From: an uncultured bacterium
GTDB taxonomy: Bacteria; Cyanobacteriota; Vampirovibrionia; Gastranaerophilales; Gastranaerophilaceae
Assembly (NCBI GenBank): GCA_949282195.1
Contig: CASDOW010000002.1
Span: 1-64,000, forward strand
Direction: 5' to 3'
DNA length: 64,000 nucleotides
How positions within the stretch are numbered: the first letter of the stretch is position 1; every line of letters starts with the position of its first letter. Positions 1-1,719 of this stretch are shown piece after piece. The position numbers and the translations under genes are program-made. The notes under the pieces were generated by a model. The model was given only the letters and a program-made list of their open reading frames with translations, did no database searches and was not told the origin of the DNA.

Positions 1-818
1 AGTTCATCAGCTCAATGCAGCAATATTAACAGTTGTATTGGAGCACAGGGAGATTGTTTAGCGCATAAGGTATGGAGCAGTGAATTTTACAGTAATTCTG
101 TTTCATATAATTATTATTTAACTAATGGAAGCTGGACAAGAGAATACAGTGATAATACAAGCGCTTATTCTGTTCGTTGTGTTACTGAAACAGATAACAG
201 CTGTGAAGATAAAAATACTAAAGGGTGTTTAATTTGTGACGGGGAGAATTGTCTTTCTTGTGACAGCGGATTTAATTTAAAAAACGGAAAATGTGAAATA
301 GATTGTATATCAAGATATGGTGAAAATTGTACAGGGTGTGATTTAAATCAATGTACAAGTTGTGCAAGTGGATATACCTTATCGGAGGGCAGCTGCAAAC
401 CGATATGCAATGTAAAATATGGTGAAAATTGTAAAGCAATGTAAAATATGGTGAAAATTGTAAAACATGTAATGAAACAAGTTGTACCGCCTGTGTTAGC
501 GGATATTATCCAAATGGGGCTACTTGTAAAACTTGTACATCAAAATATGGAGCAAATTGTAAAACATGTAATGCAAATAAATGTAGCAAATGTAAAAGCG
601 GATATACTGTCTATGATGGGGAGTGTGCTAATAGTCAATGCAGTAGTATAGAAAGGTGCTTGGAGTGTGCGACAGGAGAGGCAGGATCATCAGCAGGAAC
701 ATTCAAACGAACATTCATAATGTGTACAACTTGTGCAAAAGGATATACAACTTCTAATAATCACAACACGGCTTGTTTTATTCTTGGAGGACAATGCAAT
801 TCCTGCATAAAAAACTAA
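1..818 (+). pseudogene. Cys-rich repeat surface protein, 3' part, frameshifted
   Basis: The 5' end lies outside the window. Frame 1 is open from base 1 to a TAA at 442-444, then coding continues in frame 3 from about 438 to a TAA at 816-818. The two halves together form one Cys-rich chain: a first part ending in YSVRCVTE, which resembles the C-terminal end of pilin-like proteins, followed by about five units of the type YGxNCKTCN...CxxCxSGY. The break is explained by a perfect 29-bp tandem duplication (407-435 and 436-464). Deleting one copy restores a single frame through the repeats. Repeats of this type suggest a secreted or surface protein held together by disulphides, but the function is unknown. 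Phase variation, a fresh mutation or an assembly error would all give this picture. Confidence 0.75.
407..464 (+). repeat. 29-bp perfect tandem duplication
   Basis: Two adjacent identical 29-bp copies, 407-435 and 436-464, each starting GCAATGTAAAATATGG. Because 29 is not a multiple of three, the second copy shifts the reading frame of the Cys-rich gene and creates the stop at 442-444. Confidence 0.95.
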
Positions 819-881: not shown

Positions 882-939
882 AAGTTTTTTGTTATTTTCT
901 AGTCAGTTCGAGGTGACAAAGAAAATGCCCTCCCAAAGC

Positions 940-1058
940 GTCATGCTGAACTCGTTTCAATATCTTATCAACATGCAAGATTTACTTTTAATCTTGAAAA
1001 CAATGGGCTAATTATTTTATACATGGTTATTTAGACCCTGAAACCAGTTCAGGGTAAC
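940..1058. repeat. Pair of inverted REP-like elements
   Basis: The segment 940-967 (core CTGAACTCGTTTCA) and the reverse complement of 1031-1058 (core CTGAACTGGTTTCA) match at about 20 of 28 positions. The 1031-1058 copy is itself partly self-complementary (ACCCTGAAACCAGTTCAGGGT). This is the look of a dispersed palindromic intergenic repeat, not a gene. Confidence 0.6.
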
Positions 1059-1107
1059 AAGAAAATACACTAGTTTATTTCAAACATCTTTTGCTCTATG
1101 TAATTGT

Positions 1108-1586
1108 TCACTTTTCTTCTTTTTTCTCTCAAACGGCGAAATGAAAAAGAAGAAAAGTGAACCGAAAAGAAGAAAACTTCCGCCTGCCTCATAATTATTG
1201 GGCTTACGCCCAAATTATGTATGTTTTGCTATAGCAAAACATACTATTGTTTAAGCTAACGTTCTTTTGCTCCTGTCAAATTCGCCTTACGGCAAGAATT
1301 TGAAACGTACCCCAAGGGTATTTCCAATCCCTAAAGCTCACAAGTTCGCTAAGGGATTGTGGGCATCGCTTTAGTCCAGTGTCGGGCTGTCTGTCAAAAA
1401 CTCAACGTTTTGACATCACGCCCTCACATCCTATCGGGTCATTTCTAAAACCTAGCGCAGTCGCGCTACGGTTTTATTTCATTCCCTAGTCCAGTGTCAC
1501 AATAGCCCACCAAGCTCAACGCTTGCTATGCTATTGCTTACATCCTTGTGCCTTTTCATTCTCGTCTAAGTCCGTCGGACTAAGAC
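1108..1586. repeat. Multi-hairpin structured intergenic element
   Basis: No convincing reading frame exists in this stretch, whose local GC is visibly higher than its surroundings. It holds consecutive inverted repeats: 1108-1124 with 1144-1160 (17 bp perfect); 1198-1213; 1219-1244 (26-nt perfect palindrome); 1277-1302; 1325-1332 with 1352-1359; 1384-1423 (GGGC/GCCC outside TGTCAAAA/TTTTGACA); 1447-1475 (AAAACC-TAGCGC / GCGCTA-GGTTTT); 1500-1536; 1564-1586. A 12-bp direct repeat TAGTCCAGTGTC occurs at 1372-1383 and 1487-1498. It could be a dispersed repeat, a structured RNA or the relic of a mobile element. Strand and function are unknown. Confidence 0.65.
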
Positions 1587-1719
1587 TCGAATTTCAAAGG
1601 CTCTCCACATTTTTACTTTTTTAAAAAACTTTACAAAAAAAATTCAAATTTTGGTCATAATAATAACAAAATTAATTTTTTTTATGTTTTATAATAATAA
1701 CAATATTCAAGGAGAAAAT

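Follow-up and report, generated by a model that had tools for sequence, protein, structure and literature searches.

Hairpin modules in an uncultured Ca. Gastranaerophilales genome form a mosaic of a gene-less element family found at tRNA and tmRNA 3′ ends

The window, a stretch of 64,000 nucleotides that is part of contig C2 of a 2.1-Mb MAG of Ca. Gastranaerophilales, holds near its start a cysteine-rich ORF (1..818), a dispersed repeat, a run of hairpins, and a gene at 1720; no tRNA gene was found in it. Just upstream of the repeats, at 407–472, a 29-bp unit (GCAATGTAAAATATGGTGAAAATTGTAAA, 2.3 copies) shifts the frame of the cysteine-rich ORF, which has no Pfam match and is possibly a pseudogene or subject to slipped-strand phase variation.

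The hairpin run was first noted in a sequence-only reading as about nine inverted repeats at 1108–1586, GC-richer than their surroundings and frameless. Local folding resolves about ten consecutive hairpins in this interval, its GC content is 43% compared to 31% across the window, and it neither contains a long ORF nor is crossed by a frame. The 26-nt perfect palindrome described there is present at 1219–1244, and the sequence described as repeated is TAGTCCAGTGTC, which occurs at 1372–1383 and again at 1487–1498; the arm pair given as 17 bp exists, and its length is in fact 19 bp, perfectly paired (1106–1124/1144–1162). The true extent of the feature is wider, about 1106–1609, and an unrelated dispersed repeat adjoins it (Table 1). 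RNA folding of 1108–1586 yields −157.0 kcal/mol vs. −100.2 ± 5.9 for dinucleotide shuffles (z −9.7), with z −8.8 for the minus strand and z −10.6 under DNA parameters; 0 shuffles matched the real sequence. A strict count of hairpins (perfect arms ≥7, loop 3–12) finds only 3, against a maximum of 2 in shuffles and of 4 in other 479-nt windows, and is low because many of the stems are bulged or loopless.

Table 1. Modules of the hairpin stretch and the adjoining repeat (window positions).
Feature	Position	Strand	Composition and remarks
Module A, 160-bp dispersed repeat	902..1061		Outside the hairpin unit; tandem at C21 and C16 of own genome
Module B	1106..1177		19-bp perfect stem GTTCACTTTTCTTCTTTTT/AAAAAGAAGAAAAGTGAAC, then third copy CGAAAAGAAGAAAAC; edges shared; separate hairpin family
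Hairpin CATAATTATTGGGCTTACGCCCAAATTATG	1191..1217		Co-occurs with module B in relatives (L033, L053, L054)
26-nt perfect palindrome GTATGTTTTGCTATAGCAAAACATAC	1219..1244		
hp1 module	1268..1310		Box TGCTCCTG 1268–1275, hairpin 1276–1304, box ACGTAC 1305–1310 (canonical ACGTCGC)
Module D	1306..1369		ACCCCAAGGGT plus hairpin CAATCCCT..AGGGATTG; sits within the unit's ACG^TCGC box
hp2 double hairpin, copy E	1363..1437	+	Loop CTCAACG 1401–1407; boxes AGTCCAGTGTC, TCACATCC; R1 73.9 bits
Box TAGTCCAGTGTC, first copy	1372..1383	+	Left flank of hp2 copy E
Module F	1433..1486		GGGTCATT, hairpin TAAAACC..GGTTTTA, TTCATTCCC; alternative third stem
hp2 double hairpin, copy G	1478..1551	+	Loop CTCAACG 1515–1521; left box TAGTCCAGTGTC 1487–1498, right box TTACATCC; R1 58.7 bits
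hp3 module	1537..1609		Outer stem GCCTTT/AAAGGC, inner hairpin TCTAAGTCCGTCGGACTAAGA

Alignment ends pile up at 902, 1061, 1106, 1177, 1267, 1306, 1369, 1432, 1486, and 1609, and these shared ends indicate that the stretch is built of modules, which occur elsewhere in different arrangements and with different partners. In the orientation of the covariance model R1 (the + strand for hp2 in Table 1, opposite to the tRNA sense of intact units), the array runs hp1-D-hp2-F-hp2-hp3, preceded by module B and two further hairpins; hp3 is the tRNA-touching end of intact units (TACTTTTGAAGTTTGAGCC in tRNA sense), and module F occupies the place of hp3 in the window array. The edges of module D are sharp across many copies, the hairpin of module F is swapped for another in the C21 copy, and copies of module B in relatives have stem variants paired with a matching partner strand. 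The third stem-strand copy behind the module B hairpin appears to track the stem changes (L041, L043, L047, L058, L146, and L150), and at C27 (L077) module B has tRNA-Arg on one side and a repeated tRNA 3′ end on the other. Module A, for its part, contains palindromes resembling TCATGCTGAAC..GTTCAGCA. The stretch is a mosaic of copies of a gene-less hairpin DNA element family of Ca. Gastranaerophilales. We read the window array as a rearranged secondary array, located away from tDNA and derived from recombination between units and from insertion of module into module. In other species, the array does not accompany homologues of the downstream gene, and on this ground a role as cis-regulatory leader of the gene at 1720 was ruled out.

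The region is neither a single-copy structured RNA nor a pseudogene; a single copy and a pseudogene match were among the findings that the sequence-only reading had named as telling against itself. The dispersed repeat family that it had offered as one explanation is borne out by many copies in the own genome and in relatives: dozens of places in the own genome match the region, as do 22 of 39 relatives, of which almost all are congeneric. R1, built from 15 hp2 copies, finds 40 hp2 matches in 22 places of the own genome and places the family in 71 of the order's 286 genomes and in 24 of its 50 genera; in a sample of 386 genomes of the phylum, all 36 positives come from one family. Pattern matches in GTDB point to Ca. 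Gastranaerophilales; the many single ones outside Gastranaerophilales look like chance, as eight were re-scored with the model and none matched. Searches of phage, plasmid, and IMG/VR collections for a carrier gave no match, or single pattern matches at chance level, and no description of these repeats was found in the limited library of literature searched. Many contigs of the own genome (G000) end in or beside these repeats (C4, C6, C11, C13, C16, C17, C20, C21, C24, C27, and C30), so true copy numbers are probably higher; MAG assemblies break in arrays, which makes copy numbers and some array structures uncertain.

The commonest module, hp2, is a double hairpin with an invariant loop (CTCAACG) and fixed flanking boxes, which in own and related genomes read GTCCAGTGTC or GTACGGTTTC, and TCACATCC or CACACACC; its stems are almost wholly different between copies yet complementary, while loop and boxes stay constant. 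In the R1 seed alignment, both partners vary in 11 of the 13 pairs, with a covariation score of 0.517 vs. 0.162 in the control. Across 112 distinct hp2 matches, whose alignment was model-fitted and thus biased towards R1, double changes occur in 13/13 pairs and covariation is 0.621 vs. 0.160 in shuffled and ≤0.164 in slid controls, so that the check for compensatory change proposed with the initial reading returns a strong signal in the hp2 stems. In the loci examined, the hp1 position holds more than 35 different hairpins of 13–29 nt between TGCTCCTG and ACGTC, with hardly any sequence in common.

In hp2, G-U accounts for only 12 (1.0%) of about 1219 paired cells, and in 25 hp1 variants for 0 of 190, compared to 28 of 449 pairs (6.2%) in tRNAs of the own genome; the scarcity relative to tRNA is significant by Fisher's test (p = 1e-8, counting cells, which are not independent events). 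Because selection at the RNA level should tolerate G-U pairs and DNA complementarity should not, this scarcity favors the DNA level over RNA function, that is, a DNA hairpin or cruciform, or the perfection of palindromes by template switching. With moderate confidence, we consider that the element acts as folded DNA. Rfam contains no family for the region, where microRNA-like matches lie far below gathering scores and are caused by the long perfect stem, and on the element loci only tmRNA and tRNA were matched.

Intact units of the family have a core of about 150 bp (177 bp at tmRNA), carry no gene, and consist of three hairpins between fixed boxes, which in tRNA sense follow the order TACTTTTGAAGTTTGAGCC, hp3, GCATACGGATGTGAG, hp2 (loop CGTTGAG), GACACTGGACGATGGCGACGTA, hp1, CACAGGAGCA. 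With regard to the features of a MITE, the two ends of the unit (TACTTTTGAAG/CAGGAGCA) do not form inverted repeats, and a direct repeat of 7 bp occurs at tmRNA. Units sit exactly behind the discriminator base of tmRNA and of several tRNA genes, singly or head to tail, and those head to tail behind tRNA-Lys are joined as CAGGAGCAG^AACTTTTGAA. At the filled tmRNA site of G120 (L250), the gene ends ..CGCCATCTCCA and is followed by a 177-bp insert ending ATTATCTCCA and then by CCATTAAAATTCAGAGGC, which places 177 bp between ...TCTCCA and CCATTAAAATTCAGAGG, flanked by ATCTCCA repeats; empty sites in other genera (L294 in G077, L290 in G085, and L299 in G198) join ...TCTCCA directly to CCATTAAAAT. 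Comparison of filled and empty sites puts the insertion point between the discriminator base and the encoded CCA, and the arrangement, TCTCCA^[177 bp ..ATCTCCA]^CCA, is the 3′-end insertion with duplicated gene end of a tDNA-integrated element. Among the 30 best loci, taken one per genome and near many of which ARAGORN found a tmRNA or tRNA, hp2 lies 50–52 bp from the gene 3′ end in 8, at tRNA-Leu, tRNA-Lys, and tmRNA alike. In the own genome, 6 of 22 places are beside tRNA or tmRNA genes (tmRNA, Phe, Arg, Ala, Gly, and one not named). Each of the six is on the 3′ side, and about 0.5 would be expected (p = 9e-6); the other 16 are not at tRNA genes.

Two further arrangements were observed at such genes. 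G117, which belongs to another genus, carries units on the 5′ side of two different tRNA genes, separated from each by the same distance of about 108 bp (C13:45425–45619 and C14:932–1008). At least three further families of hairpin inserts, 105–230 bp long, are found behind tmRNA (L303, L302, L245, L307, L280, L295, L073, L252, and L256); the 3′ end of tmRNA is copied at the end of each, and several start with an inverted copy of the T-arm.

Units at the tmRNA site in genus g1 are 94–99% identical to those of genera g27, g29, g35, and g36, where the tmRNAs themselves are only 49–58% identical (over aligned columns, gaps counted), which indicates horizontal movement between genera; binning error was ruled out because the unit lies within contigs, with the tmRNA of the respective genome on one side and that genome's flank on the other. 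We conclude with high confidence that this is a mobile hairpin family aimed at tDNA ends. The suggestion that the stretch is the fossil of a mobile element was therefore right as to mobility and wrong as to a decayed gene-bearing ancestor, since the 177-bp copies are intact, gene-less, and nearly identical between genera.

The strong hp2 covariation, the fixed place right after tRNA and tmRNA 3′ ends, and the tandem copies behind tRNA-Lys would also suit a structured RNA, either the trailer of a tRNA or tmRNA precursor or a regulatory RNA, whose hairpins are kept for their RNA fold. The near absence of G-U pairs, the equal folding of both strands, and the lack of an Rfam match argue against RNA as the level of constraint for the structured RNA that the sequence-only reading had offered as one possibility, and so do a patchy presence, a cross-genus unit identity far above that of tmRNA, and the location of most own-genome places away from tRNAs; we regard this explanation as improbable. 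Attachment-site scars, i.e., remnants left at tDNAs by lost prophages or islands and later copied round the genome, would account for inserts flanked by tmRNA 3′ end fragments, for several insert families at one site, and for a locus (L296 in G247) that by eye appears to have an integrase gene right behind tmRNA. Such scars would not be so nearly identical over the full 150–177 bp at one site in five genera, nor would they keep compensated stems, and the phage, plasmid, and IMG/VR collections searched hold no match; this origin, too, seems unlikely.

Purely selfish hairpins would need no recognition: inverted repeats perfected by template switching would spread by unequal recombination, and covariation would arise as a side effect of quasi-palindrome correction. 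Stems of perfect Watson-Crick pairs with almost no G-U, many unrelated hairpins within identical boxes, chimeric units (e.g., L023 and L010), and array expansion speak for such a process; it leaves unexplained the exact insertion behind the discriminator base together with the empty sites, the cross-genus identity, and the invariant loops and boxes, and we give it little credence. The preferred reading of a tDNA-targeted element raises the matter of its machinery. The element encodes no integrase of its own, the 177-bp insert being too short and the window array lacking an ORF. The own genome, which is 99.9% complete, lacks a Y1 transposase (PF01797), as do 27 of 28 genomes in the genus, no integron integrase scored above cut-off in 15 genomes, and reverse transcriptase is absent from G000, G003, G004, G020, G021, and others, several of them rich carriers; on the strength of these absences in carrier genomes, all three were rejected as general machinery. 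In their conserved flanking boxes and their mosaic intergenic arrangement, the hairpins resemble REP/BIME-like palindromes mobilized by a Y1 transposase (RAYT or IS200/IS605), a reading that the PF01797 result contradicts and that is very improbable.

Neither a circle nor excision nor a helper was seen, and no enzyme is linked to the element. Tyrosine recombinases are present in 16/16 genomes tested. In G021, at least 17 hp2 copies coexist with just two PF00589 genes, which are both of chromosomal size class, and hence no dedicated integrase was seen there; for a tyrosine integrase, a flanking repeat of 7 bp is short, given 20 bp in the ssrA islands of Dehalococcoides (PMC3146451). At L296, the gene read by eye behind tmRNA seemingly encodes a tyrosine integrase on the opposite strand. 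The insertion site suggests that a trans-acting site-specific recombinase may move the element, with low confidence for any particular enzyme.

Several known systems share part of this combination. Tandem repeats lie behind the E. coli tRNA gene tyrT and carry its 3′ end, a function through the RNA fold has been proposed for the rtT RNA found there, and these repeats are not known beyond one locus. They are like the present units in length, tandem arrangement, and possession of the tRNA 3′ end; the hairpin family differs in occupying many loci at several tRNAs and tmRNA, in having free intergenic copies and horizontal spread, and in matching no Rfam family. The attC sites of integrons act as folded single-strand DNA in which structure is conserved and sequence variable, as would also hold for the hairpin family, in which no paired RYYYAAC/GTTRRRY ends at attC spacing (R″/R′ 57–141 nt apart) were found.

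The hallmark of genomic islands is integration at the 3′ end of a tDNA with duplication of the gene end (Islander, PMC4383910), and the ssrA islands of Dehalococcoides comprise tandem inserts with 20-bp repeats and a serine recombinase (PMC3146451). The units share with these islands the tRNA/tmRNA 3′-end insertion, the duplicated gene end, tandem inserts, and a preference for tmRNA (PMC4383910, PMC3146451); however, islands are multigene (with size peaks near 14 and 40 kb) and usually have an integrase, whereas the unit is 177 bp of gene-less hairpins, has a 7-bp repeat, and inserts behind the discriminator base, not in the T-loop. Pneumococcal BOX elements, Neisseria NIMEs, and E. coli BIMEs are modular intergenic mosaics, likewise of many copies, composed of short stem-loop modules and mostly gene-less (PMC3049150). 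In contrast to these, no terminal inverted repeats were seen in the hairpin family, its stems vary almost completely while loops and boxes are kept, and its intact copies lie at tDNA 3′ ends and are spread across genera. The family can be viewed as small mosaic repeats crossed with tDNA-specific integration, and the combination of a gene-less hairpin element below 200 bp, tDNA 3′ ends, and free stem turnover was not found in the limited library of literature searched.

The reading that we prefer, with a probability of about 0.6, is that of a hairpin element that is non-autonomous and targeted to tDNA; a site-specific recombinase possibly moves it in trans, and its window copy is a rearranged secondary array. 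The element, lacking machinery of its own, would be recognized through a folded single DNA strand or a cruciform, together with its loops and boxes, and the agent moving it in trans would most likely be a site-specific recombinase that uses tDNA 3′ ends; from tDNA the element would reach further intergenic sites, and there arrays would be built by unequal recombination and by insertion into boxes. A broader and distinctly more tentative proposal is a new class of minimal mobile element, in which a gene-less, 150–180-bp string of interchangeable hairpins would move as folded single-stranded DNA into tRNA and tmRNA 3′ ends by means of a host recombinase (perhaps Xer) and multiply into mosaic arrays across a family of bacteria.

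If this is true, tDNA 3′ ends receive, besides genomic islands, much smaller gene-less elements, and recognition would fall on a folded DNA strand instead of on terminal repeats. As a natural experiment the family is unusually clean, with fixed loops and boxes, freely exchanged stems, near-identical copies beside divergent tmRNAs, and exact empty sites, and its repeats account for the breaks that assemblies of these uncultured gut bacteria show at one kind of sequence.
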